Assembly: GCA_019638595.1 (NCBI GenBank)
Contig: JAHBTJ010000001.1
Coordinates: 124,001 to 188,000, forward strand
Direction: 5' to 3'
DNA: 64,000 nt
Source: Chitinophagaceae bacterium
Lineage (GTDB): Bacteria; Bacteroidota; Bacteroidia; Chitinophagales; Chitinophagaceae
Shown here: positions 6,411 to 56,408 of the stretch, piece after piece
Numbering within the stretch: position 1 is the stretch's first letter
Layout: each line of letters starts with the position of its first letter
Translations under genes and position numbers: made by a program
Notes under the pieces: model-generated
What the model saw: only the letters and a program-made list of their open reading frames with translations
What the model was told of the DNA's origin: nothing
Database searches by the model: none

Positions 6411-7580
6411 TTAAAACTGATCAATATCCTGCCAGGGTATAGTATTATCTGAAGCAATAAAATTCACAATGTCAATAAAACCCACAAGCGCATTGTTGGG
6501 AGTAGGGGTGCGGCTATTGGAGGTGGCAGATATACATATACCATTAACGTTGCGGTAAAGTATGGAAAAAGTACCCGGCAGACTTCCCCACCAGAACCAT
6601 TCTCCCTGTTCCACCACCCATCCGCAGCCAAAATGCCATCCAAAGCCTATGCTGTTTGCAGTGGGAGTAACCATTGTTTTAATGGTTTGAAGCGATAATA
6701 TGTCCGGCCTGCCGGAAGAACTATCAACCGCTGTTGCAAAACGCAAAAGATCGGATGCTGTAACCAGCCAGCCCATAGCTCCGTTTGCTCTTTGAAAATT
6801 AGTATAATTATAGGCAAGCTGCGATTCGGATCCCTGCCCGTAATACTTCACTTCGTTGATTTGCCTGTCAGATAAATTCATTCCTGCAATAGCTGCGCTG
6901 CCCGCGCCCACTTTATTCCATATTTCTTCTGTAACGTATTGGGTATAAGGTTTACCGCTCACTTTTTCAATGATCGCGGAGAGCAGCATATACCCGAAAT
7001 TGCTGTAGGCAAAGGATGTTCCCGGTTTTTTGGTGAGCGGAAGATGATCGAGCGTATGATTAATTACAGCAGTTGCGTTCATGTTGTTATCAAAAAATGC
7101 GGGATCATTGTCCTGCCCCCATCCGCCGATAGTATGATGGAGCAGGTCGCTTACCGTAATATCCGTTACATATTGCTTATAAGGCTGGGTGCCATACACA
7201 ACACTTAAAATACCTGAATTGCCAAATACTTTAGATTCCATGGTAAGTTTACCATCCTGGAGCAGCTTCATTACCGCCACGGAAGTAATAAGCTTACTAA
7301 CGCTGGCCACCCTGAAGCGGGCATCTGTAGTAACAGGCGCATTGGCTTCTTTGTCTGCCACTCCATATCCTTTGTTGTATACCAGCTTGCCGTTTTTGCT
7401 AACGGCCAGCGATAAACCCGGCATATTGTTTTTTGTAAGCCAGGCATCTGTTTTCGTATCAATGGCGGGAATGTCGGCCTGCTTTATTCCGGGAGTTTCA
7501 AAGGGTTCGTTATTTTTTTTGCAGGCGGTAAGTAATAACAGAACTGATGTGCAGGCGATAAATACCTTTCCTTTTAGCAT
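6411..7580 (-). CDS. serine hydrolase lipoprotein, beta-lactamase/DD-peptidase family (class C fold)
   Basis: This 389-residue protein has a lipoprotein signal (MLKGKVFIACTSVLLLLTAC, lipid-anchored C20) followed by KKNNEP. The penicillin-binding-fold catalytic motifs are present: SVSK (S93-K96), YSN (192-194), and a late WHFGCG that fits the third HxG/KTG-type motif. Such proteins (beta-lactamase-related serine hydrolases, Pfam Beta-lactamase) include esterases, D-aminopeptidases and carboxypeptidases, so true beta-lactamase activity should not be assumed. It is probably anchored to a membrane facing the periplasm or surface. It is separated from the sugar genes upstream by about 180 bp and converges with the dehydrogenase gene on the other strand. 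Confidence 0.9.
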   Translation of the reverse strand: MLKGKVFIACTSVLLLLTACKKNNEPFETPGIKQADIPAIDTKTDAWLTKNNMPGLSLAVSKNGKLVYNKGYGVADKEANAPVTTDARFRVASVSKLITSVAVMKLLQDGKLTMESKVFGNSGILSVVYGTQPYKQYVTDITVSDLLHHTIGGWGQDNDPAFFDNNMNATAVINHTLDHLPLTKKPGTSFAYSNFGYMLLSAIIEKVSGKPYTQYVTEEIWNKVGAGSAAIAGMNLSDRQINEVKYYGQGSESQLAYNYTNFQRANGAMGWLVTASDLLRFATAVDSSSGRPDILSLQTIKTMVTPTANSIGFGWHFGCGWVVEQGEWFWWGSLPGTFSILYRNVNGICISATSNSRTPTPNNALVGFIDIVNFIASDNTIPWQDIDQF

Positions 7581-7757
7581 AACTCTTCTTTTTTGTTGTA
7601 TATCGTAAGAAGAAGCAACAGGTCATCAATATAACCGGGATAAATTTTTATTGCATGAAGGGGAAGCGGAGCGCTGACCGCGAGAGCGGTTTTCGATATA
7701 CGGGATTGCCGGAGGAACGGCCGGAATGCCTGGCACGACGGAGCTTTCCAGTTCTAC

Positions 7758-8501
7758 CTACAATTTCTCCACCACATGTTCCGGCAGTATATACCCGTCT
7801 TCCAGTTCTATTACCTGAAGGTTGCGAAATTCTATCCGGGCGCCCTCCGCTTCCAGGCATAAATAGCCTTTACGTTGTGAAGACTGCCGGATGCCATTTA
7901 CATATTTCCCGTTAACGGACAGCTTAATAGTTCCGTCTACACAAACAACAGTGTATGTATTCCATTCACCCACACCCAGGCACCTGTTCTCTATAGATTT
8001 GCTCCTTTCACCACGAGGATTATCAGGAGTGGTTTTGGCTTTGCCCGCCCCGAAAAGCTCGCCATGCACATAGGCAATGGGAGGTATTTCTCCATTGCGT
8101 TTGTTTTGATTCACCCAATCCAGCTCCAGCATCTGCACTTCCACACCGCTGGGCAGGCGGTTATGGTCTTCCGGCTGCGCATCGCACCACACAAAAATTC
8201 CGGAGTTGCCGCCTTTTTCCATATGCCGCCATTCTACATGCATAATAAAATTCTGGTACATCCTTTCCGATCGTACAACACCGATCGGCCAACCCTTGCC
8301 AACAAGCGTATCTCCTTTTTTGTACCATGTGGTATCGGTAGTGTTTACATCTACCCAGCGCAAGGGTTCACCTGTTGCATTGCCAGCGATCAATTTGTCA
8401 AAGTTTTTTCTTTCGCCAAACTCAAAAAGTATTTCCTGGCTGAAGCCGGGAATACATACAGCAAGATTCAAAATAATGAGGATACATTTCAAAGATTTCA
8501 T
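7758..8501 (-). CDS. DUF1080 (3-keto-disaccharide hydrolase-like) periplasmic protein
   Basis: This 247-residue protein has a Sec signal peptide ending at GFSQ and a DUF1080 concanavalin-like beta-sandwich over the rest. Landmarks are [60 protein letters not shown] and [22 protein letters not shown]1080 is the Pfam 3-keto-disaccharide hydrolase family; members act on 3-keto glycosides made by Gfo/Idh/MocA dehydrogenases. A Gfo/Idh/MocA gene and three sugar-enzyme genes lie just upstream, which supports the same use here. The signal peptide places it in the periplasm. The gap behind it (7581-7757) is locally GC-rich with small palindromes but holds no gene I can support. Confidence 0.88.
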
Positions 8502-8554
8502 GTTGTTGTTTTAGCTAATGCAAGTACAATGTACGATATACTGAACAAATGCAT

Positions 8555-8833
8555 TTTCGCTGTACGAAGTCTCTGGCTATAAACGTTCGAAACCTGCGAA
8601 AATGCCGCTCCTACGGCGCTTTGTCAATACGTTACTGTATAATTGCCACCAAACTTTCGCGTCTATGACGCTATAAAATTGATGATATGGCAGCCTTCAA
8701 AATAACGTTTCGAATACTTATGGTCTCCGACTTCGTATCATGTTCTTCAGGGACTTTGTTCCGTAATATTCTTTTCATGTTGAAGCCGCCGGCGACAGGA
8801 AAACGCGCTAAGCGAAGGCCTTAGCACAGCAAA
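8555..8833. repeat. degenerate, apparently interrupted copy of the multi-hairpin element
   Basis: The 19-mer at 8555-8573 (TTTCGCTGTACGAAGTCTC) is identical to the head of the intact copy at 8885-8903. The rest of that element resumes at about 8723 and continues to 8833, ending GGCCTTAGCACAGC. The 150 bp between (8574-8722) look like an insertion. They are bounded by an 8-bp inverted repeat, TTCGAAAC (8586-8593) and GTTTCGAA (8707-8714). Inside are further small hairpins: GCCG/CGGC (8604-8617) and GCGTC-TAT-GACGC (8659-8671). In the resumed part the second hairpin keeps GGGAC/GTTCC pairing, while the third and fourth are decayed. I see no coding potential. Confidence 0.6.
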
Positions 8834-8884
8834 GAATTCACCCGGAATGACGGTTGTAACGCTGATGTAGCAATCCATATATTA

Positions 8885-9016
8885 TTTCGCTGTACGAAGT
8901 CTCCGACTTCGTATTTCCTATGTTCTTACGGGACTTTGTCTCGTAATATTTACTGCATGTTAAAGTCGCCGGAGGCGACAGGAGAAAAATGCTAAGCGAA
9001 GACGCTTAGCACAGCG
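8885..9016. repeat. intact multi-hairpin palindromic element
   Basis: Four short stem-loops follow one another. (1) Arms 8893-8901/8905-8913, TACGAAGTC with GACTTCGTA, loop TCC. (2) Arms 8926-8934/8938-8946, TTACGGGAC with GTCTCGTAA (one G-U), loop TTT. (3) Arms 8965-8970/8974-8979, GTCGCC with GGCGAC, loop GGA. (4) Arms 8991-8998/9003-9010, GCTAAGCG with CGCTTAGC, loop AAGA. The whole is framed by CGCTGT (8888-8893) and ACAGCG (9011-9016), an outer inverted repeat that could close a branched fold. No frame, transposase or T-run accompanies it. It resembles a REP/BIME- or MITE-like non-coding element; its class is unknown to me. Confidence 0.65.
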
Positions 9017-9350
9017 GGCTTTTGTGCAAATGCTCAACATCTGCACTACTTCCCACCCTACCGCTAAGCCGCACTTGCAGCATGAGGCATAAAAGCCAAT
9101 AATGTCTACCACAATAAGGATACGGTGCATTTTTAAAAATTGAAAAAGACCTTGCAGCTCTAATGGGTTAAACCCCAAAAATGACTGTTTATTGAAGTGT
9201 ACTTTTTATTAAACTGTTTAGCATTAAATTGAAAAAATTATCGAATAAAGTACTACTATAAAAAAATATTCAACCTGTAATCCAACTTTTTCTCATCATT
9301 GAAGAGTGCGATGTAACGGAAGCACAATAGTAGTACTATAGCCGGGAACA
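9017..9350. other. intergenic stretch without a supported gene
   Basis: This is the AT-rich remainder of the 932-bp gap between the Gfo/Idh and DUF1080 genes. A 72-codon minus-strand frame (9178 to 8960) runs through it into the hairpin element; it has no family signature and its C-terminal half is just the translated palindromes. The stretch must hold the promoter of the DUF1080 gene or lie upstream of it, but I see no clear TAnnTTTG box. Confidence 0.4.
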
Positions 9351-9391
9351 ATAAATAAAAAACCGCCACGATTTGAAAAACGGGGCGGTTT
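9351..9391 (-). terminator. rho-independent terminator of the sugar operon
   Basis: On the minus strand AAACCGCC (9391-9384) pairs with GGCGGTTT (9367-9360) across a 16-nt loop, followed by a T-rich tail (GGTTTTTTATTTATT). It begins about 40 bp after the stop of the Gfo/Idh gene and closes the operon 14143-9434. Confidence 0.85.
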
Positions 9392-9433
9392 AATTTAGAA
9401 AAATGATTCGTAAGACATGAATCCGGGCAAATA

Positions 9434-10597
9434 TTACTTCTCCACCCACTCAACCTCAGTCTCTTTCCAACTCCTGCTTTTAGCAGAGTCAATAACCGCT
9501 TCACATACTTTTTGTGTTTCGTATGCATCTCGGAAATTGGGGTGACATTCGGTGCCGTCTTGTAACGCTTTCAGGAAATCGGCTGCCTGGTGTATAAAGC
9601 TGTGCTCATAACCAATAATCAAACCTGGCACCCACCATTGGCCCATATAAGGCTGGTCGCCATCGGTAACCAGTATGGAGCGCCATCCGCGTACAATGCC
9701 TTCATCGTTGTGGTCAAAATATTCCAGGCGGTTCAGGTCGTGCAAGTCCCAACGCAGGGAACCTTTTTCGCCATTGATCTCGAAGGTGTACAGAGCTTTA
9801 TGCCCGCGGGCATAGCGGGTAGATTCAAACAACCCTAATGAGCCGTTGGCGAAATGGCAATGAAAAATACAGGCATCATCAATACCTACTTTTTCCACTT
9901 TGCCGGTTAACTGGTGAAACCTTTCTTTGATGAAGGTTTCTGTTACCGCGGATACATCTGTAATGCCACCGTTCAGCCACATGGCGGTATCAATGCAGTG
10001 TGCCAACAGGTCGCCCGTTACGCCGGAACCTGCAGCTTCCACATCGAGCCTCCAGGCAGCAGTACCACCCTGTGGCACATCAGCGCTGATGGTCCAGTCT
10101 TGCAAAAAGTTAGCGCGGTAATGGAATATTTTGCCAAGCTTGCCGCTGTCAATAATTTGCTTTGCCAGTGTAACCGCGGGTAAACGGCGATAATTATACC
10201 AAACGGTATTTTTTACTTTCGCTTTTTCTATGGCGTCTACCATTCCTTTTGCTTCTGCAAGTGTGCGAGCCAGCGGTTTTTCGCACAATATCATTTTGCC
10301 TGCTTTTGCAGCAGCAATAGCTATCTCCGCATGCATATCGTTGGGAGTACAAATATCCACCGCATCAATATCATCACGGGCAATGAGCTTTTTCCAGTCC
10401 GTTTCAATGGATTCATAGCCCCACTGGTCGGCAAATGCCTGTACTTTTTCTTTGTTGCGGGAGCATACCGCTTTTAATACCGGCGTATACTCTAAGTCGG
10501 GAAAAAAGTTAGGTACCCTGTTGTATCCGTTGGAGTGTGTACGACCCATAAAGCCCGTACCTACCAAACCTATGCGTAGTTGTTTTTTATTTGACAT
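9434..10597 (-). CDS. Gfo/Idh/MocA-family sugar dehydrogenase
   Basis: This 387-residue NAD(P)-dependent oxidoreductase has a Rossmann domain with [16 protein letters not shown] (residues 10-25), [19 protein letters not shown], and the family's EKP motif (E106-P108 in CEKPLA). The C-terminal domain has GGTAAWRLD and [19 protein letters not shown], with the His and Asp positions typical of the substrate pocket, and a late [13 protein letters not shown]. It is the last gene of the four-gene sugar operon. I see no Tat or Sec signal, so it should be cytoplasmic. In keto-glycoside pathways this family oxidises the C3 hydroxyl of a sugar; myo-inositol or other polyol substrates are alternatives. 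Confidence 0.92.
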
Positions 10598-10600
10598 AAG

Positions 10601-10755
10601 CGATTTGAAATTTGAGATTTGATTTAGCTGTCAGCCATCAGCTGTCAGCCATCGGTTATCAATATTGTTTTTACTTTTTACAAGTTTCAGGTTTCGGATT
10701 TCAGGTTTGCCAATTTGCAAGAGCTGTATTGTTTAAACACCTGTAACCTGCTTAC
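10601..10755. repeat. degenerate word-repeat tract 1
   Basis: This low-complexity intergenic tract is made of short imperfect reiterations: GATTTGAAATTTGAGATTTG, two copies of AGCTGTCAGCCATC, then CAAGTTTCAGGTTTC and CTGTAACCTG. The same words recur in the gaps at 22.6, 26.9 and 50.5 kb. It separates the TIM-barrel and Gfo/Idh genes, which otherwise belong to one tight operon. I see no hairpin with a T-run and no frame. Confidence 0.6.
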
Positions 10756-10757
10756 CA

Positions 10758-11783
10758 CTAACTCCACCCATGCGCCTCTCTCACCTTTATCATCACGGCA
10801 AGAATATCATTCCAGGTTTGCTGGTTGTGCATTACCGCATTGGGGAACATACAACCATCCCAGCAGATATGCGTGAATTTTTTAGTGAGGTTCCCGTTTT
10901 CATCGCGAAGCCAGTAACCTGCATCTTTTACAATATCCAATCTCCCGTTTGGATCAGTTGCAAGACAGTGACGCCCCGTTTTATCGTGCGAGCCGGTGCC
11001 ATGAACCGTACCATCATTCTGCGCTACGTGAAAGTCAATTGTCCATGGGCGAAGCGCAGCAGTTAATTTCTTCAAACCTTCTTCCAGTGCGGCGCGATCG
11101 CTCCACTGGAAGTTTTCAGGAAGAATGCGATGCTCCGGGGCATTGTATCCTAATAAATACAGGAAAGTATGCGACATGTCTGCCTGGAATCCGAGGTTGG
11201 GGCTGTTTACCGCTTCCAGCGTATCAAGCATTGTCTTCCAGCTATGCATACCAGCCCAGCAAATTTCACCTTCGGCGGCTAACTTCTCGCCATTGTCGCC
11301 GGCAATTTTAGCCGCCTCTTTAAATGTGTCTACTATTAATTTCTGGCTGCCGGCAGGGTCTTTCGCGTATTGCTCAGGGCTGCTGGCAGAATCAATACGC
11401 ACAATACCATACTTGCGTATACCGATATCATTCAGCTTTTGTGCAAACACGCAGCTTTTGCGTACTTCTTCCAAAAATGTTTTGCGGTCATCGGCAGTAC
11501 CTAATATAGGTCCACCCCAGATAGGCGCCACCACGCTTCCTATAACAAGATTATGTTTGGCTACTTTATCAGCCAGTTTTTTTGGCCCGTCAGGATCATT
11601 CAGATCAATAGAGGGATCAAAGAAGCCCACATCAACGCCATCGAATTTTACGCCGTTCACTTCTGCTTTCGCAGTATACTCAAGCATGGTATCAATCAAT
11701 AAAGGCGGTTCGGAGTCGGGTCCTTTACCAACCACGCCGGGCCAGGTAGCATTGTGTAATTTGGGGAAATTGTTTTGTGCCAT
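10758..11783 (-). CDS. sugar phosphate isomerase/epimerase family TIM-barrel protein
   Basis: This 341-residue protein is of the AP-endonuclease-2/xylose-isomerase-like TIM-barrel family. Features that fit are [14 protein letters not shown] near the N terminus, [23 protein letters not shown], the metal-ligand-like [30 protein letters not shown], and [12 protein letters not shown]. It has no signal peptide. It sits between the cupin gene (37 bp upstream) and the Gfo/Idh gene. In keto-sugar clusters such proteins isomerise or epimerise keto-sugars downstream of the dehydrogenase; the exact reaction cannot be read from the sequence. Somewhat longer than the common 270-300 residues of the family. 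Confidence 0.88.
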
Positions 11784-15865: not shown

Positions 15866-18800
15866 ATGAAAGGAGGTTGTTTATACCTGTTTATTATAAC
15901 ATTGCTTATCCATGCTGGCGCTTCAGCACAGGAGTTTCCTTACCAGTTCAGAAGGCTAGAACTGCGTAACGGGCTCTCGCATAACCAGGTAAATACCATT
16001 TACCGCGATTCAAAAGGATTTATGTGGTTTGGCACCATGTCGGGACTGAACAGGTTCGACGGGTATGATTTTAAAGTATTCAAGCACGATCTGCGTGATT
16101 CTACCACGCTCAGCGATAATTATGTTGAAAGAATATACGAGCTGCCGGGGCGGAAGTTGTGGATCGCTACCAGGAATGGCAATAATATTTATGACCCGTT
16201 CACGGAAAAATGCAGCCGGAAAGACCAGGATTATCTTGCCGCCATGGGCTTGCCGCCCGGTGTGGTAGGCTCTGTATTTAAAGACCGGCAGAATAACTTC
16301 TGGTATGTTTATCAAAATAACGGTGGCGTATACCGTTATAATGCCGCTACTAAAAAAATAAACGCTTTTCAGCACGATCCGCTCGATTCATTCAGCATAT
16401 CTACCAGCGATGTTGCCGCCATAATGCAGGATAGCAACAATGATATGTGGATGGTGCACCGAAACGGGATGATTGACAGGTTGAATGGGGCCAGCTATAA
16501 GGTAACATTCAGGAGCAGCCGGCTTAAAACATTTGCCGGTAACAACACCCAGAACTATACGTTATTTATTGACCGGGATAATGAGCTTTGGATAACCATA
16601 CCGCTTTCAGGAAGCCCGGGTGGAGTATTTTACTACCAGCCTGCTGCCGATCATCTTTTACATATTACTAAGGAAAGCGGGCTGCCGCGGCTTAATAATA
16701 ACATCGTTACAGGAGTTACCCAGTCGGGTGATGGTTTGATATGGATTGCCACCGATCACGGGGGTATTAACCTGCTGGATAAAAAAAGCAGAACTATCGG
16801 GTATTTGCTGAACGATGCCGAAGATCATACTACCATCAGCCAAAATACCATTTACGCAGTTTATAAGGATAGTAGCGATGTAATATGGCTCGGAACCTAT
16901 AAGCAGGGCATTTGTTACTACGATAATGATCTTTCATTGTTCAGCCTGTTCAGGCACAAAGTGTCGGACCCGAACAGCCTCCCATACGAAGACATCAACC
17001 GCTTTGCGGAAGACAGCAAAGGAAATATCTGGATTGGAACGAATGGAGGAGGGTTGATATACTATGACCGTAAACAAAATAAATTTACGAATTACCGTCA
17101 CAATCCATTGGATCCAAACAGCCTGAGCAATGATGTGATCGTAAGCTTATGCATTGATTCGGAGCAGAAGCTGTGGATAGGCACTTATTTTGGAGGACTG
17201 AATTGCTTTGATGGTAAAAAGTTCATTCACTACCGCAGGAATATAGCCGATACCAATAGTATTTCCGGCGACAGCATTTGGGAAATATTTGAAGATTCGG
17301 ATAAGGATTTATGGATCGGCACACTGGGCGCAGGCCTGAACCTGTTTAACAGGAAAACGAAAAAATTTACCTGTTACCGGGTTGAAGACGGTCTTTCGGT
17401 GCATTCGAACTATATATCGTCGTTAATGGAAGATGAGCAAAAGAATATATGGATTGGCGCCTCGAACGGGATTGATGTGCTGGATAAGAAAACGCAAACA
17501 TTCCGGTATATCGGTCACGATGATAATGATTCCAGTTCCCTGAGCAATAACAATGTTTTTTGCGTGTTAAAAGACAGCAGGGGCCTGATATGGATAGGAA
17601 CCCGCGAAGGACTTAACCTGCTGAACGAAGATGGCAATACCGTTACCGTATTTCGCAGGGAAGACGGGCTGGCGGATAATACTATTTTCGGTATTCAGGA
17701 AGACAGTCGCCACACTTTATGGATGACAACTCCCAATGGGCTGTGTAACGCGGTCGTGATACAGAGCGATACGGCTCCCGTAAAATTAAAATTCGTGAAT
17801 TACGATGAATCAAACGGTTTGCAGGGCAGGGAATTTAACGATAAGGCCTTTTATAAATTGAAAACGGGCGAGCTGATTGCAGGCGGGCCTTATGGTTTTA
17901 ATATCTTTAACCCCGCTAAGTTTGTGGAAACAAGCAACCCGCCTGTTACTGTTATAACAGGTCTTCATATTTTTAACCGCCCGGTAGCAGTAGGGGAAAA
18001 GATCAATGGGAATATTATCCTGAACCAATCAATAACCGAAGCCGAACAAATAACGCTCCGCTATAATGAAAACGTGTTTTCCATTTCTTTTTCCGCTTTG
18101 GGATCTATGCGATCGGGTAAAGACCGTTTTATTTATACCCTGGAGGGCTTTAACAAGCAATGGCTTACTACCGATGGCAGGCAGCGTACTGTTACCTATA
18201 CCAACCTCGATCCCGGGGATTATGTTTTTAAAGTAAAGTCGGAAAACGATACGGATATAAATGGCGGTCAGCAATTGATCATTACCATTTTACCGCCTTT
18301 CTGGAAAACCGGGACCGCTTTTGTGTTATACGCACTGCTTATTGTGGCATTACTATTACTGGCACGCAGGTTTACAATACAGCGGGCTAATATGCGCTTT
18401 CAGTTGGAGCAGCAAAAAAAAGAAGCCCAACGGGTACACGAGCTGGATATGCTTAAGCTGAAATTCTTTACCAATGTCAGTCACGAGTTCCGCACTCCAC
18501 TTTCGCTTATTATTACCCCCGTTGAAAAGATAATGAAGCAGGCTGACGATATAGGGCAGAAAAAACAATTGCAACTGGTATACCGGAATGCTAAAAGGTT
18601 GCTCGGGCTGGTAAATCAATTGCTGGATTTCCGTAAGCTGGAAATGCGTGAGTTAAGGTTGCAAACATCGCTGGGGAACATAGTAAGCTTTATCAGGGAG
18701 CTTACTTTGTCGTTTACCGATCTTGCTGAAAAAAAGAATATCCACTTTACTTTTTCCACCGATACGGAATCTGCTGAAATTTTCTTCGATCCCGATAAAA

Positions 18801-20011
18801 TTGAACGGATCATGTTCAACCTGCTTTCCAATGCGTTTAAGTTTACGCCCGAAAAGGGAACGGTAACCGTTCAGATGCATGTAAAAGACAACGATCATAT
18901 ACCTGGTATAGAAATAATGGTGAAAGATACGGGTATAGGCATACCTCCCGAAGACCAGGATAAGATATTTGAACGTTTCTTTCAGCATGAGCTGCCTCAA
19001 AATGTATTGAACCAGGGCAGTGGTATAGGGCTGGCGATCACCCGTGAGTTTATTCGTTTGCATGGTGGGAATATCAGGGTGAAAAGCGCTCCGGGCGAAG
19101 GGACGGCTTTTACGGTATGGCTGCCACAAAAAACCGCTGCACCCGCTTTGCACGCAGAACTTATGGAAGACCAGGAAATTGTTATGCACACAACAGAGGA
19201 AACGGATATGGAGGAAGCGGGAGGAGAAAAAACAGGGAAACGGAAAGGAAGTGTGCTGGTTGTGGATGATAATGATGATATCCGTTTTTATATTAAAGAC
19301 AACCTGCGCATGAACTATACCGTATATGAAGCTGCCAATGGAGCGGAAGGCTGGAAAAAAGCGCAGGATTTTTTACCCGATATTGTGATCAGCGATATTA
19401 TGATGCCCGAAATGAATGGCGTGGAACTGTGCCATAAAATAAAAAACAATACGCACACTTCTCACATCCCGGTCATCCTGCTTACCGCCCGTACCGCTGA
19501 GGAACAAAAGCTGGAAGGTTTTGAAAGTGGCGCCAACGATTATATAACCAAGCCTTTTAGCTTTGAAATGCTGCAATCCCGTATTAAAAACCTGCTGGCT
19601 CACCGGGAGGCTGTGCGCAGGCTGTTCCAGAAGCAGATAGAGGTGCAGCCTAAAGAAATTGGTGTTACACCTGTTGATGAGGCGTTCATCCGCAGGTCAA
19701 TAGAAGTAGTAGAAAGCAGGATCAGCGAAGCGGAGTTTTCTGTGGAAGACCTTAGTCGTGAAATGTTGATGAGCAGGGTGGCTTTATACAAAAAATTATT
19801 GTCTCTTACAGGAAAGTCCCCGCTTGATTTTATCCGGACTATCCGTATGAAGCGAGCTGCCCAGATGATGACAAAAACTCAAAAATCTGTTTCGGAAATC
19901 GCGTACGAGGTAGGCTTTAATAACCCTAAATACTTTGCAAAATTTTTCAGGAAGGAGTTTGGCATGTCGCCCACGGAATATATAGCGGCTCACCGCATAA
20001 AAAAGGTATAG
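15866..20011 (+). CDS. hybrid two-component system regulator (HTCS)
   Basis: This 1381-residue one-protein two-component system has a signal peptide (ending GASAQ) and a periplasmic two-part beta-propeller of Reg_prop repeats (about residues 25-690, recurring DSKGFMWFGT-, NIWIGTNGGG- and LWIGT-type blades). A Y_Y_Y domain (about 730-805) and one membrane helix (about 815-837) follow. Then come a HisKA domain with H873 in NVSHEFRTPLSLI, an HATPase domain (DTGIGIPPEDQDKIFERFF), a receiver domain with D1177 in ISDIMMPEMNG, and a C-terminal AraC-type helix-turn-helix (RAAQMMTKTQKSVSEIAYEVGF). HTCS proteins sense oligosaccharides and activate polysaccharide-use loci. No SusC/SusD pair lies beside it; the nearest sugar genes are the DUF1080/Gfo-Idh cluster upstream. 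Confidence 0.96.
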   Translation: MKGGCLYLFIITLLIHAGASAQEFPYQFRRLELRNGLSHNQVNTIYRDSKGFMWFGTMSGLNRFDGYDFKVFKHDLRDSTTLSDNYVERIYELPGRKLWIATRNGNNIYDPFTEKCSRKDQDYLAAMGLPPGVVGSVFKDRQNNFWYVYQNNGGVYRYNAATKKINAFQHDPLDSFSISTSDVAAIMQDSNNDMWMVHRNGMIDRLNGASYKVTFRSSRLKTFAGNNTQNYTLFIDRDNELWITIPLSGSPGGVFYYQPAADHLLHITKESGLPRLNNNIVTGVTQSGDGLIWIATDHGGINLLDKKSRTIGYLLNDAEDHTTISQNTIYAVYKDSSDVIWLGTYKQGICYYDNDLSLFSLFRHKVSDPNSLPYEDINRFAEDSKGNIWIGTNGGGLIYYDRKQNKFTNYRHNPLDPNSLSNDVIVSLCIDSEQKLWIGTYFGGLNCFDGKKFIHYRRNIADTNSISGDSIWEIFEDSDKDLWIGTLGAGLNLFNRKTKKFTCYRVEDGLSVHSNYISSLMEDEQKNIWIGASNGIDVLDKKTQTFRYIGHDDNDSSSLSNNNVFCVLKDSRGLIWIGTREGLNLLNEDGNTVTVFRREDGLADNTIFGIQEDSRHTLWMTTPNGLCNAVVIQSDTAPVKLKFVNYDESNGLQGREFNDKAFYKLKTGELIAGGPYGFNIFNPAKFVETSNPPVTVITGLHIFNRPVAVGEKINGNIILNQSITEAEQITLRYNENVFSISFSALGSMRSGKDRFIYTLEGFNKQWLTTDGRQRTVTYTNLDPGDYVFKVKSENDTDINGGQQLIITILPPFWKTGTAFVLYALLIVALLLLARRFTIQRANMRFQLEQQKKEAQRVHELDMLKLKFFTNVSHEFRTPLSLIITPVEKIMKQADDIGQKKQLQLVYRNAKRLLGLVNQLLDFRKLEMRELRLQTSLGNIVSFIRELTLSFTDLAEKKNIHFTFSTDTESAEIFFDPDKIERIMFNLLSNAFKFTPEKGTVTVQMHVKDNDHIPGIEIMVKDTGIGIPPEDQDKIFERFFQHELPQNVLNQGSGIGLAITREFIRLHGGNIRVKSAPGEGTAFTVWLPQKTAAPALHAELMEDQEIVMHTTEETDMEEAGGEKTGKRKGSVLVVDDNDDIRFYIKDNLRMNYTVYEAANGAEGWKKAQDFLPDIVISDIMMPEMNGVELCHKIKNNTHTSHIPVILLTARTAEEQKLEGFESGANDYITKPFSFEMLQSRIKNLLAHREAVRRLFQKQIEVQPKEIGVTPVDEAFIRRSIEVVESRISEAEFSVEDLSREMLMSRVALYKKLLSLTGKSPLDFIRTIRMKRAAQMMTKTQKSVSEIAYEVGFNNPKYFAKFFRKEFGMSPTEYIAAHRIKKV

Positions 20012-52079: not shown

Positions 52080-55000
52080 TTATCTTATTAATGTAACATT
52101 TCCTTTCATGGGCACAATCTGCGCGTTGTCGCAAACAAATTCAACAATATATACATATACATCGGGGGGTAAAGGCTGGTTGGCCATCCTGCCGTTCCAT
52201 CCCTTCGACGCATCGTTCGCCATAAAGTTCTTTTTTTCAAAAACCTGTTGCCCCCAGCGGTTGTATATCCGCATGCTTTGCACACGCGCCAGCCCTCTCC
52301 CACGGGGATAAAATACATCGTTCATGCCATCGCCGTTGGGCGAAAAAGTATTAGGCACAAAATAGTTTTCTTCTGTACATAATACCCTAACGGTTATTTC
52401 GGCCGAGCTCATGCAGGTATTACTATCGGTTACGGCTACTGTATATGTTTTGTCGAACTGCGGACTGGCCACCGGGTTCGGGCAATCGGTGCAGCTTAAT
52501 CCATCGGCGGGCGTCCATACATAAGAGGCTATACCCGCGCTGTAGGTAACCGGCAGCGGTATTTGCCCGCCTATAGGCATGGTAACCGGCGTGGTGGTAA
52601 TTACAGGCAATGGCGCAACGGTAAACGGATGTTGCGTTGTGCCCGAGCAATTAAGAAAGTTGGCTGCCGTAAGGGCAATATTGTATTCACCCGCCCGGTC
52701 GTATACGATCGTATTGTTTTGTTCTGCCGATGTTCTGCCATCTCCGAAATTCCAGCTCCACACAATAGCGGTATCGGGATGTGCCAGTGTGCCATCAAAG
52801 CGTATTGCCCTGTTAATGCAGGTAAGATCATCCGCATTAATAACAGGTTGGGGGGTGCGTGGCACCCGGACTGTATCGTAAAACGATAATGTGCACCCGG
52901 TTGCGGTAGTAGCCGATAAGGTGATGGGGTATAACCCCGGTGCGCTGTATGTATGAGGAGGAGGATCCTTTTCGGTATAAGTGGTGCCATCGCCAAAATC
53001 CCATGATTGAGATACCACCGGATCGCCGGATCTGCTGATGGTAAAATTTGTTGCGAATATGGTGCCCGAATCGCAAAATGCCCGCCTGTCGAGATTGAAT
53101 GCCGGCACCGGGCCACGTATGTCTATAGCCGAGGGGCCGCTTACCTGCGACCGGCAGTCGCCCGAATCTATTATGTAAACGGAAGGCCTGTAAACATTGG
53201 GGTAATTATAGGTATGTTGTAATGTTTTTTGCCCTGATGAATCAATGCTGCCGTCTCCAAAATAAAAATAGTACCTGGTATTGGGAGGAACGGTGAAATC
53301 GAAATCAACAGTCAGCTCGTTGCAGGCGTAAGCGGGAACGCTGTAATTGATCTGCGTATAGACATTGGGGTCATATACGTTGATAGGGAAAGAAGCGGAA
53401 TCTACACAACCTCCGTATCCCCTGGCATATAGTTTAGCGGTGTAATTACCAAAATCGCCGTAAAAGTGGCGTACCACGGGTTGATCCAGCCGTGAATCAA
53501 TGCCATCTCCAAAATCCCATAACAGTGATTCATAATTCTGGCTGTTGTGATAAAATTTGGTTTCCAGCACCTGGCAGGTAGAAGTGCTGTCTTCTACCGT
53601 AAACGCGGCTACGGGTTGCCTTACCGAAATATAATCAGCCCTGGTTATGGAATCTTTGCAACCGGTATCGTCGGTAATAGTAAGCTTTACGGAGTAAACG
53701 CCTTCGGTGGTATATGTATGTAAAGGATATTGGTCGGTACTGGTTTGTCCATCGCCGAAGCTCCAGTTGTAAGTAAGATTATTTCCAGCGGAAGAATCCC
53801 GGAAGGGCAGTTCCAGGCCGGGGCAGAACAATTGATAGTCTGCACCGAATGCTGCTGTGGGATGAGTAACTCTTATAGTATCGTCGGAAATAAATTCGTG
53901 GGTACAACTGGCATTATCTGTAACCATGAGTTTTACTACAAACGAGCCGGTATCGGAATAGGTATGCGTAAAGGGCGCCGTTGTAAAATTTTGCGTTTGT
54001 CCATCTCCAAAATCCCAGGTCCATGATGCAATACCTGCACCGGCGGTTGACTGATCATTAAAAGTTACCTCGCCGTTTTTACATACAGCCGGCGGAACGG
54101 TAAACAAGGCATTAGGGCCTGTAACCGATATGGTTTGCGTACTGTTTACTTCACATCCGTGTATATCACGCACCCGTAATCTTATAAGAGAGCTGCCTAA
54201 AGAAGAGAATGAAGTGTCAAGGGTTTGCGTGCTAACAGATAAAGGCTGCCCATCCAGGTACCAGGCAAAATCCCTGATGTTGGAGGGGTCTTCAAGAGCG
54301 GTAAAGCTCACCCGTTCATCCCTGCACAAGGGGTTTTTGGAAACGCTGAAAGTACTATCCAATGGTCTTACATCAATGGGTTTTTCTACCGTGCTTGTAC
54401 AACTGCCGTTTATAACGGTTAAGCGTACTGTATAAGTGCCATATTGAGCGTAAGTATGGGCTCCGGGCAGGGCAGTGCCGGATGAATTGCCATCCCCGAA
54501 ATTCCAGTCATAGCTTACATTTCCCAGCGCGGCATCTACTATGGAGCTGTCTGAAAATGCAACCGAAAGCCTGTTGTCGCAATCGGGGGTAAACCCGAAG
54601 TTGGCCAGGGGCGCCTGCTTAAAAATGAAATTGGTTTTAATAACTGCCGGAGCGGAACAGCCATTATTCAGGGCGGTAAGACTTACTGTAAGCCTGCCGG
54701 TATCGCGGTATATATGTAACGGGTTCTGGAGGGAAGAAGAATCGCCATCCCCAAAATCCCATCTCCATTCATTGGCATTGATAGCAGTTCCCACAAAGCT
54801 AACGGTATCATCAATACAGTCGCCGGTGGTGCTGGCGGTAAAATCCACAGCAGAAGGTGCTGTTCCTGCCCTGACTGTTGAAGTGGCGGTGGCGGTGCAT
54901 CCCCCGTTGGTAGTAACGGTAACGCTTATTGTGTAGGTGCCGGAAATTGTATAACTGGTTGAAGGAGTAGCGCTGCTGCTGGTATTGCCATTCCCCAAAT

Positions 55001-56408
55001 CCCATGCATAAGCGGCTACGCCATCTATAGCATTTACATTGGCTGTTGGAGTAACGTTTGTCAGCGGGGCGCAGCCGCTGCTTTTTGCATTGATGATGCT
55101 CACCGTGGGAGTAATAATTCGTACAAACTGGTTTTTGGTAGCCGAATTTTCACATCCGCCTGCGGTAGTAATAGTGAGCGTTACGTTGTATTCGCCTGCG
55201 GTAGTATAAGTATGCTGTGGCGTTGCGCCGGTTCCTTGTGTTCCATCTCCAAAATCCCACTGCCAGGTAACGGCTCCGGGAGCGTTTGCCTGGAAGCTTA
55301 CATTCAGCGGAGCCTGGCAGCCGGAGTTACCGGTGGCGGTAAAATCAACGGGCGGCTTGCCGGTAACCACGATCGTTTTTTCCAGCGAATCGGTACAACT
55401 GCTGAACCTGTTGACCAGCTTAACATTGTAATTACCGGGAGTATTGTATGTTTTTACAGGATTTACTTCCGTGGAGCCGGCGCCATCACCAAAAGCCCAG
55501 TCAAACGATACCACGCCTGTTCCGGATGTGTTCCCGAAGCTGACCTGTTGCCCTATACAAACAGTGTCGGGGTTATTGAAGTCGGTAGTAAATGCATTGA
55601 CCGCTACTGTTTTTTGTACGGTATCCACACATCCAAAATCACTACGCGTAGTAAGGCGCACATTATAATTGCCGCTTGTATTGAAGGATGCAACAGGAGC
55701 AGGGTTGGTAGAAGTGCTGCCATTGCCAAAGTCCCATTCGTAGGTTAACGTACCTGGCCCGGACGACTCATTGGTGAAAGCCACATTAAAAGGCGGGCGG
55801 CATTCGGGCGAAGGCGTGTTTAAAAATTCCGCCTCAATTCCACCTACCATGCGTATATATCTTCCCCTGCTGGTGCGCCCAATACAGCCGTTGCTGCTGG
55901 TAGCGGTAAGGGATACATTGTAATATCCTGTTTGTTCGTATACATGCGAGGGGTTTTGAGCGGTTGAAGTGTTGCCGTCACCAAAGTTCCATTCGTAACT
56001 GGTAATGGTACCCTCTGTTGTATTAGCTGTGCCGGTAAATTGTAAAGGCGCCGGTAAGCAGGCGGTTGTAATATCAGCAGATAAGCCTACGGATGGCGAC
56101 GGGTAAACCGTAATATAATCGGTTTTGGTAATAGCATTTACACCATTTTGATTGCGCACCACAAGCGTAACCGTATAGGTGCCCGGAGCGCTAAAGGTAG
56201 CGGTAGGGTTCTGAAGATTGGAGAGTTGCCCGTTACCAAAATCCCAGTCCCAGTATTTGGGGTTGCCGGTAGACTGGTCTCTGAAAGCAACAATCAGCGG
56301 TGAACATCCGGATTGAACCGACGCTGAAAATTCGGCCACAGGTGTTTGCGCGTTAGCAGTAAGCACAATCAACAATACGAATATGGTATTGAATATTCCT
56401 TTTTTCAA
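52080..56408 (-). CDS. PKD-repeat surface protein with T9SS type B sorting domain
   Basis: This 1442-residue protein starts at a TTG (56408; no upstream ATG in frame) and has a signal peptide ending TANAQ. About 15 PKD domains in tandem carry the WDFGDG/WNFGDG motif (such as YWDWDFGNG, EWNFGDG, YNWSFGDG, YFYFGDG). Nearly every domain has one cysteine at its first strand (SGCSPL, SGCQAPL, SGCAPL, FCPGLE) and one near its end (NGCIGR, FGCVDT, GGCENS, TGCKDS), probably forming disulfides. The end is a CHU_C/type B domain: NYFVPNTFSPNGDGMNDVFYP and MRIYNRWGQQVFEKKN. It is a secreted adhesin-like surface protein, the cargo partner of the PorP/SprF gene behind it. Confidence 0.95.
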   Translation of the reverse strand: MKKGIFNTIFVLLIVLTANAQTPVAEFSASVQSGCSPLIVAFRDQSTGNPKYWDWDFGNGQLSNLQNPTATFSAPGTYTVTLVVRNQNGVNAITKTDYITVYPSPSVGLSADITTACLPAPLQFTGTANTTEGTITSYEWNFGDGNTSTAQNPSHVYEQTGYYNVSLTATSSNGCIGRTSRGRYIRMVGGIEAEFLNTPSPECRPPFNVAFTNESSGPGTLTYEWDFGNGSTSTNPAPVASFNTSGNYNVRLTTRSDFGCVDTVQKTVAVNAFTTDFNNPDTVCIGQQVSFGNTSGTGVVSFDWAFGDGAGSTEVNPVKTYNTPGNYNVKLVNRFSSCTDSLEKTIVVTGKPPVDFTATGNSGCQAPLNVSFQANAPGAVTWQWDFGDGTQGTGATPQHTYTTAGEYNVTLTITTAGGCENSATKNQFVRIITPTVSIINAKSSGCAPLTNVTPTANVNAIDGVAAYAWDLGNGNTSSSATPSTSYTISGTYTISVTVTTNGGCTATATSTVRAGTAPSAVDFTASTTGDCIDDTVSFVGTAINANEWRWDFGDGDSSSLQNPLHIYRDTGRLTVSLTALNNGCSAPAVIKTNFIFKQAPLANFGFTPDCDNRLSVAFSDSSIVDAALGNVSYDWNFGDGNSSGTALPGAHTYAQYGTYTVRLTVINGSCTSTVEKPIDVRPLDSTFSVSKNPLCRDERVSFTALEDPSNIRDFAWYLDGQPLSVSTQTLDTSFSSLGSSLIRLRVRDIHGCEVNSTQTISVTGPNALFTVPPAVCKNGEVTFNDQSTAGAGIASWTWDFGDGQTQNFTTAPFTHTYSDTGSFVVKLMVTDNASCTHEFISDDTIRVTHPTAAFGADYQLFCPGLELPFRDSSAGNNLTYNWSFGDGQTSTDQYPLHTYTTEGVYSVKLTITDDTGCKDSITRADYISVRQPVAAFTVEDSTSTCQVLETKFYHNSQNYESLLWDFGDGIDSRLDQPVVRHFYGDFGNYTAKLYARGYGGCVDSASFPINVYDPNVYTQINYSVPAYACNELTVDFDFTVPPNTRYYFYFGDGSIDSSGQKTLQHTYNYPNVYRPSVYIIDSGDCRSQVSGPSAIDIRGPVPAFNLDRRAFCDSGTIFATNFTISRSGDPVVSQSWDFGDGTTYTEKDPPPHTYSAPGLYPITLSATTATGCTLSFYDTVRVPRTPQPVINADDLTCINRAIRFDGTLAHPDTAIVWSWNFGDGRTSAEQNNTIVYDRAGEYNIALTAANFLNCSGTTQHPFTVAPLPVITTTPVTMPIGGQIPLPVTYSAGIASYVWTPADGLSCTDCPNPVASPQFDKTYTVAVTDSNTCMSSAEITVRVLCTEENYFVPNTFSPNGDGMNDVFYPRGRGLARVQSMRIYNRWGQQVFEKKNFMANDASKGWNGRMANQPLPPDVYVYIVEFVCDNAQIVPMKGNVTLIR

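Follow-up and report, generated by a model that had tools for sequence, protein, structure and literature searches.

A probable hybrid dimer of two REP-like double-hairpin units, each linked to its own RAYT type, in a Chitinophagaceae genome

A short four-hairpin element in the genome of a Chitinophagaceae bacterium is very probably a non-autonomous, RAYT-less hybrid dimer of the REPIN/BIME kind, composed of two units, A and B, with their tags facing outwards. We conclude this because A and B units each go with their own type of RAYT transposase. Since each unit belongs to a family that adjoins, and is probably moved by, its own RAYT elsewhere in the genome, the element is most likely a tiny passenger and not an RNA gene.

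Structure and setting of the element

The element is intergenic, between a hydrolase and an oxidoreductase gene of the window, by which we mean the whole stretch of 64,000 nucleotides that we analysed (Table 1). The first-pass annotation described four hairpins with tight loops, and all four are found at 8888-9016, with loops of 3-4 nt; the arms of 8-9 bp that it gave for hairpins 1, 2 and 4 are of 9 bp in each case. We set the start at 8888 because CGCTGT begins there. The outer inverted repeat that had been reported, CGCTGT and ACAGCG, is present, but it consists of two inverted copies of one tag, with bases common to the outer hairpins. The linker of unit B differs from that of unit A. The window unit A is the top match of covariance model R1, and the window unit B is matched by model R2, each being also among the model's own sequences. 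No tRNA was found in 7000-11000.

Table 1. Features of the window around the element (window coordinates)
Feature	Position	Strand	Description
3-keto-disaccharide hydrolase gene (PF06439)	7758-8501	-	Neighbour, context
Second, degenerate A/B composite	8559-8830	+	Split by insertion at 8578-8722; unnoticed by the first-pass annotation
MITE-like 145-bp insert	8578-8722	+	In outer hairpin loop of degenerate unit A; separate element
Element ends	8888-8893, 9011-9016		CGCTGT, ACAGCG
Unit A	8889-8946	+	Tag GCTGT 8889-8893, outer hairpin 8892-8914, linker with TATGTTCT, inner hairpin 8926-8946
Hairpin 1	8893-8913		9 bp, loop TCC; extra G-T pair 8892/8914
Hairpin 2	8926-8946		9 bp including one G-T, loop TTT
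Spacer between units A and B	8947-8964	no strand	18 nt, resembles spacer of other A/B composites
Unit B, inverted	8965-9015	-	Tag GCTGT 9015-9011, outer hairpin 9012-8989, linker, inner hairpin 8979-8965
Hairpin 3	8965-8979		6 bp, loop GGA
Hairpin 4	8990-9011		9 bp, loop AAGA
Gfo/Idh/MocA oxidoreductase gene	9434-10597	-	Neighbour, context

An intergenic position would also suit a bidirectional terminator, or a stabiliser of mRNA 3' ends, kept for the sake of the neighbouring genes. There are three terminator-like matches in 8480-9460 where 0.8 are expected, and roles of REP sequences in termination and mRNA stabilisation are put forward as a hypothesis in the parts of PMC3733652 considered here. 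The first claim that no T-run is present is not entirely correct, as TTTTTCTCC follows hairpin 4 on the minus strand, but four or more consecutive T after the hairpin occur in only 6 of 30 aligned unit B copies, which speaks against a terminator. So does position: the window copy is 5' of the hydrolase gene, whereas the congeners G123 and G154 have the composite or a unit A immediately 3' of a homologous gene. In the source genome no unit was found 3' of the hydrolase gene; the copies there are on its opposite side. Such a role would moreover leave the link to RAYTs unexplained, and we consider it very unlikely as the reason for the element, although termination could be a side effect of it.

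Two families of units and their transposases

A DNA search of the source genome (7.06 Mb, 52 contigs) with the element gave 31 matches, mostly of the left or right half alone. With the covariance models, at E ≤ 0.01 and with 150 candidates scored per genome, we retrieved 29 matches to unit A and 60 to unit B, that is, many dispersed palindromic copies as in REPs and REPINs, the intergenic position having been checked for the window copy alone. Similar elements in related genomes, which the first-pass annotation had asked for, do exist: DNA matches to the element occur in 12/12 genomes of the genus and in 0/26 outside it, and the covariance models, under the same settings, detected unit A in 12/12 and unit B in 11/12 genomes of the genus. 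Judging from sequence, the genus of the source and its congeners is probably Agriterribacter (Chitinophagaceae); the RAYT locus of Agriterribacter humi shows no visible difference from that of congener G148 over the aligned stretches shown.

Paired substitutions, proposed at the outset as a check on the fold, are abundant in the arms of both units. In an alignment of 24 of the 25 type-A units (L090 left out), 93.6% of cells pair, changes on both sides affect 10 of 17 pairs, and 52 cells are changed on both sides of the pair against 17.3 in shuffles (reached by 0/500). The unit B alignment holds 30 of 36 units; of the six excluded, four lack an intact inner hairpin and two come from another genus. 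In its 29 distinct copies 99.4% of cells pair, both-side changes occur at 8 of 16 pairs (a count reached by 8/500 shuffles), and 54 cells are changed on both sides against 16.1 in shuffles (0/500). Slid controls pair in 26-41% (A) and 27-43% (B) of cells. Pairing is favoured in these figures because the search for units relied in part on their hairpins and because units lacking an intact inner hairpin were omitted, and further pair types do not exceed shuffles, 84/500 (A) and 105/500 (B) of which reach the count.

A strong fold with paired substitutions would be expected of a structured non-coding RNA too, in which the closed multi-branched fold is transcribed and acts as RNA. This fold, as first proposed, is indeed far better than in shuffles, with a predicted -52.8 kcal/mol against a mean of -31.8 (z -6.31, equalled by 0/200), but the reverse strand (z -5.23) and 8888-9016 folded with DNA parameters (z -5.73) are also far better than shuffles. 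Rfam yielded 0 matches at gathering score in the whole window and 0 at E ≤ 1 over 8480-9100, and 8480-9460 has one promoter-like site against 2.6 expected in its shuffles. Further, the halves are found apart and in either order, singly, around RAYT genes, or paired as B-B, A-B and B-A. Nothing besides the fold and the paired substitutions supports a non-coding RNA, which is thus highly improbable; of the three options raised by the first-pass annotation, the best is a palindromic mobile element, in the form of RAYT-linked repeat units.

Five matches to Pfam Y1_Tnp were found in the source genome, the weakest of which is RAYT-A, on contig C19 (frame 18691-19344). It is flanked by inverted A units, at 18325-18382 (+) and 19259-19316 (-), and a third A unit, damaged and interrupted by a copy of the 145-bp insert of Table 1, lies nearer to it on the left. 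RAYT-B (C14, 100746-101300) was found by protein search, has no Pfam match at E ≤ 0.001, and is flanked by B units at 100678-100728 (+) and 101336-101386 (-). The original statement that no transposase accompanies the element is therefore true locally but not of the genome, which has two RAYT genes flanked by A or B units. RAYT-A and RAYT-B score 86 and 107.8 bits, respectively, with the NCBIfam model for REP-associated tyrosine transposases (NF047646, cut-off 80), and the RAYT of locus L050 also passes that cut-off; for the IS200 family, RAYT-A stays below the cut-off (20.1 vs 55 bits). Their motifs are NHVH in RAYT-A and NHMH in RAYT-B, YIHQNP / YIHNNP, and SS near the end, one of the sequence comparisons covering 14 of 25 loci. 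A structural model predicted for a 94% relative of RAYT-A (mean pLDDT 64, C-terminal part poor) resembles E. coli TnpA-REP in complex with its hairpin (4er8; TM 0.57/0.65), which has the best TM-scores among the matches listed and ranks third by E-value, amid other Y1 transposases; a sequence search of the PDB with RAYT-A gave nothing at E ≤ 0.01. The HUH and Y motifs, the family profile and this fold match point to membership of the RAYT / TnpA-REP family. Matches to RAYT-A at 1e-10 occur in 88 of the 147 genomes of the bacterial family.

The type of unit matches the type of RAYT throughout the genus. Within 400 nt, 6/6 RAYT-A orthologues (at least 73.5% identity) have A units only, and 6/6 RAYT-B orthologues (at least 72.8%) have B units only. 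Ten of these 12 orthologues lie between nearest units of opposite orientation whose tags point outward; the exceptions are L131, where the downstream B unit points the same way as the upstream unit, and L132, where a single side has a unit. Nearest units lie 9-59 nt from the RAYT, except for 80 nt on one side in L131 and 339 nt on one side in L142. Nine distant RAYT paralogues (best identity 37-47%) were also inspected: eight are without A or B units in the available DNA up to 400 nt from the gene, and the ninth has a weak A unit at 330 nt. An A unit also lies 9 nt from a single RAYT-A remnant.

The RAYT-A cassette occupies the same gene neighbourhood in six genomes (L139, L134, L135, L140, L141 and L142), and because its flanks align the gene looks stably inherited while its units are scattered. 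Numbers of units do not track the presence of RAYTs. For instance, G155 has 18 unit A matches, yet no RAYT match at 1e-20. Among genomes without a RAYT-B orthologue, G149, G151 and G153 contain 21, 24 and 26 unit B matches, and G147, G154 and G155 contain 1, 1 and 0; the six genomes with an orthologue contain 10 to 60. Old units may outlive their enzyme or use another.

Double hairpins at other RAYT loci and relation to known repeats

Among 59 RAYT loci of the family and of named genomes, a double hairpin, with 3-16 nt between its members, occurs at 60 of the 118 flanks, compared with a mean of 0.92 and a maximum of 4 in shuffled flanks, and with 3 of 116 control stretches situated 600-700 nt away. 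It is present on both sides in 21 of the 59 loci and never in shuffles; the rule is not universal, since the other 38 lack it on at least one side. For this count 61 loci were entered and two (L042 and L126) dropped as too short; L054, L056, L065, L104, L106, L108, L109, L125, L128, L139, L142, L144 and L147-L150 were not entered, being at contig ends, duplicates or fragments. The set holds orthologues and two loci of one species, so that loci are not independent. Loops and stem lengths were counted on the same set, again excluding L042 but including L126: viewed from the tagged side, 108 of 122 loops start with T, and the outer stem is the longer one in 47 of 61 double hairpins and equal in 4. 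Outside the genus (40 loci), GCT is at the foot of 23/40 double hairpins, against a background of 6.4%, and GT[AG]G at 2/40 feet; stems differ, and these loci are not independent either. A RAYT of another genus (L051) is flanked instead by very long palindromes, with arms of 16 and ~21 bp and a few G-T pairs.

By analogy with known enzymes, each RAYT would be expected to read the tagged single strand, in view of the GCT foot, the loops beginning with T and the strand polarity. A protein-binding DNA array, such as a nucleoid or gyrase site passively spread by recombination, would account for repeated palindromes, but the type-specific tie to two transposases, and the loop polarity at RAYT flanks, which indicates a single-strand DNA enzyme as main reader, make it the least credible of the explanations considered.

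Bacteroidetes RAYTs of subclass 2.6 accompanied by "atypical secondary structures" have already been published (PMC6006769). According to the parts of that paper considered here, subclass 2.6 of TnpA-REP, or Bertels group 5, resembles our proteins in its presence in Bacteroidota, the Y motif YIH[QN]NP, the NHVH found in RAYT-A, the SS near the end and the HuH-Y distance (median 82 residues; 86 in RAYT-A and 84 in RAYT-B), and also in flanking hairpins that have copies elsewhere in the genome and lack a GT[AG]G foot. As described in those parts, however, the subclass has no hairpin consensus and weaker structure, in contrast to the strong double hairpins, GCT(GT) foot, linker and T-first loops found here; RAYT-B also departs from it in its NHMH, and both proteins in the W located 21 residues before Y, which is followed by T or I where the spacing predicts WQ.

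REPINs and BIMEs of E. coli, Pseudomonas and Stenotrophomonas consist, in the sections of PMC3733652 used here, of inverted REP-like units with tags outside (HH dimers), with a cognate RAYT elsewhere in the genome, and hetero- and hybrid REP dimers are known from the same source; a RAYT gene between two inverted REPs is the classical arrangement (PMC2817692, in part). The window composite is such an inverted pair with tags outside, and a cognate RAYT is flanked by inverted copies in the 10 of 12 orthologues already mentioned. Unlike those of REPINs and BIMEs, the halves here consist of two hairpins each, carry GCT and not GTAG at the foot, and are tied to two different resident RAYTs. Two hairpins per unit are common to A, B and the RAYT flanks of other genera, and the foot is GCT(GT) in place of GTAG (GT[AG]G); both features being at variance with canonical REPs, we consider the element REP/REPIN-like. 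The view in the first-pass annotation that it is unlike REP sequences is not supported in the sense intended, since its parts are REP-like units of kinds that flank RAYT genes, one type each, although their foot is not GTAG and each of them carries two hairpins.

The CGTC-tagged REPs of PMC3733652 are also tagged palindromic repeats, occur in Bacteroidetes too and are mostly HH dimers. In that paper, in the parts considered, CGTC is an unpaired end tag and no transposase genes are tabled for them, whereas the CGTC of unit B extends over both stem and loop, and RAYTs adjoin the units. With IS200/IS605 elements (IS608, ISDra2) our system shares the HUH Y1 fold and hairpins near the ends, but it differs in the score of RAYT-A below the IS200 cut-off, the inverted units on both sides, and the few gene copies against many hairpin copies.

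We found no description of the double-hairpin layout, the GCT foot or the A/B hybrid in the REP/RAYT literature searched, that is, in the parts considered of PMC6006769, PMC3733652, PMC8266576, PMC2817692, PMC11194056 and PMC1525189, leaving aside Table S1 of PMC6006769, which may list subclass 2.6 hairpins, and the Bertels paper on RAYT groups. Our results give a concrete anatomy to the atypical structures beside Bacteroidetes RAYTs, with a searchable consensus and testable oligonucleotides. Because stems vary freely while tag, loops, linker and the pairing with RAYT type persist, the presence of two systems in a single genome is a natural experiment on how single-strand transposases recognise their own hairpins.

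Composites, possible movement and a separate insert

A/B composites with a similar spacer, several of them damaged, were found four times in the source genome (at the window site, twice on C50, once with a damaged inner B hairpin, and as the degenerate copy just upstream in the window) and three times in two congeners (two in G123, with diverged A halves, and one in G149, with a damaged A half). The composite alignment comprises 11 sequences, of which seven are composites and L068, L070, L079 and L089 are A units with an eroded or absent B half. Among the matches listed for the source genome (15 of 29 A and 43 of 60 B), 7 of the 9 pairs less than 200 nt apart have their tags outside, as four B-B, two A-B and one B-A pairs; the other two are tail to tail and tandem.

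G152 has one B unit that G148 lacks, with flanks ~91-92% identical, and the difference, of ~84 nt, is without polarity. No target duplication of units was found. At the window locus, we found no clean empty site among 10 congeners in the 3' flanks of the oxidoreductase gene: two align over ~120 bp only, G150 through its own unit only and six not at all, and one contig leaves just 43 nt.

In E. coli, TnpA-REP binds single-stranded REP and not its complement, needs GTAG, and cleaves at CT 5' or 3' to the structure, according to the parts of PMC8266576 considered. By analogy, we infer movement of the element by RAYT as follows. When the tagged strand is single, as on the lagging strand, each unit would fold into two hairpins; the RAYT would bind the tag and hairpins of its unit, and could cut at the CT near the foot (GCT) and join the ends, so that units or whole dimers would be copied or moved. 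The dimer may have originated by gene loss from a unit-RAYT-unit cassette together with recombination or insertion uniting an A end and a B end. L150 (G123, C6:116952-117110), where 53 codons of a RAYT-B gene remain between inverted B units at distances of 8 and 35 nt, is a possible intermediate, by deletion, from RAYT cassette to RAYT-less dimer. Both the A/B hybrid and this remnant suggest a route by which RAYT-less dimers (REPINs) could form.

It is possible, although we lean slightly the other way, that Bacteroidota RAYTs use a separate REP design, with GCT-footed tandem hairpins, T-first loops, a spaced linker and a pair of hairpins per end, and that the element in the window is a mobile chimera, with each end read by a different resident RAYT. 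If so, the chimera would move only with both RAYTs acting, or with one accepting the end of the other.

The 145-bp insert in the degenerate composite was considered as part of the element and rejected, as it is an independent repeat, with distinct ends close to CATAAACGTTCGAA and TTCGAACACTTATG and with flanking duplications. Matches to it number 25 in the source genome and 0 in 11 congeners, and as DNA it folds no more stably than its shuffled versions (z -0.13). Sites were judged by eye for 24 of the 25 matches, the scripted right end being misplaced in L151, L154 and L173; 10 of these 24 copies sit in the outer loop of a unit A, one such unit being partial. Flanking duplications are of 9 bp (e.g. 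L160, L162 and L167) or 10 bp (L170), and imperfect in others. From these sites and the duplications of 9-10 bp in several of them, the repeat seems to aim at the hairpin apex of unit A; REP sequences are known as targets of insertion sequences (PMC1525189, in part). A search for an autonomous partner by the terminal 14 bases showed no excess, with 60 matches with at most 2 mismatches, known copies counted, against 95 for the reversed control. Elsewhere in the window, 52729-56252 contains short direct repeats (families D1-D3) at a spacing of ~250 bases and its multiples, and may encode a protein built of numerous short repeats.
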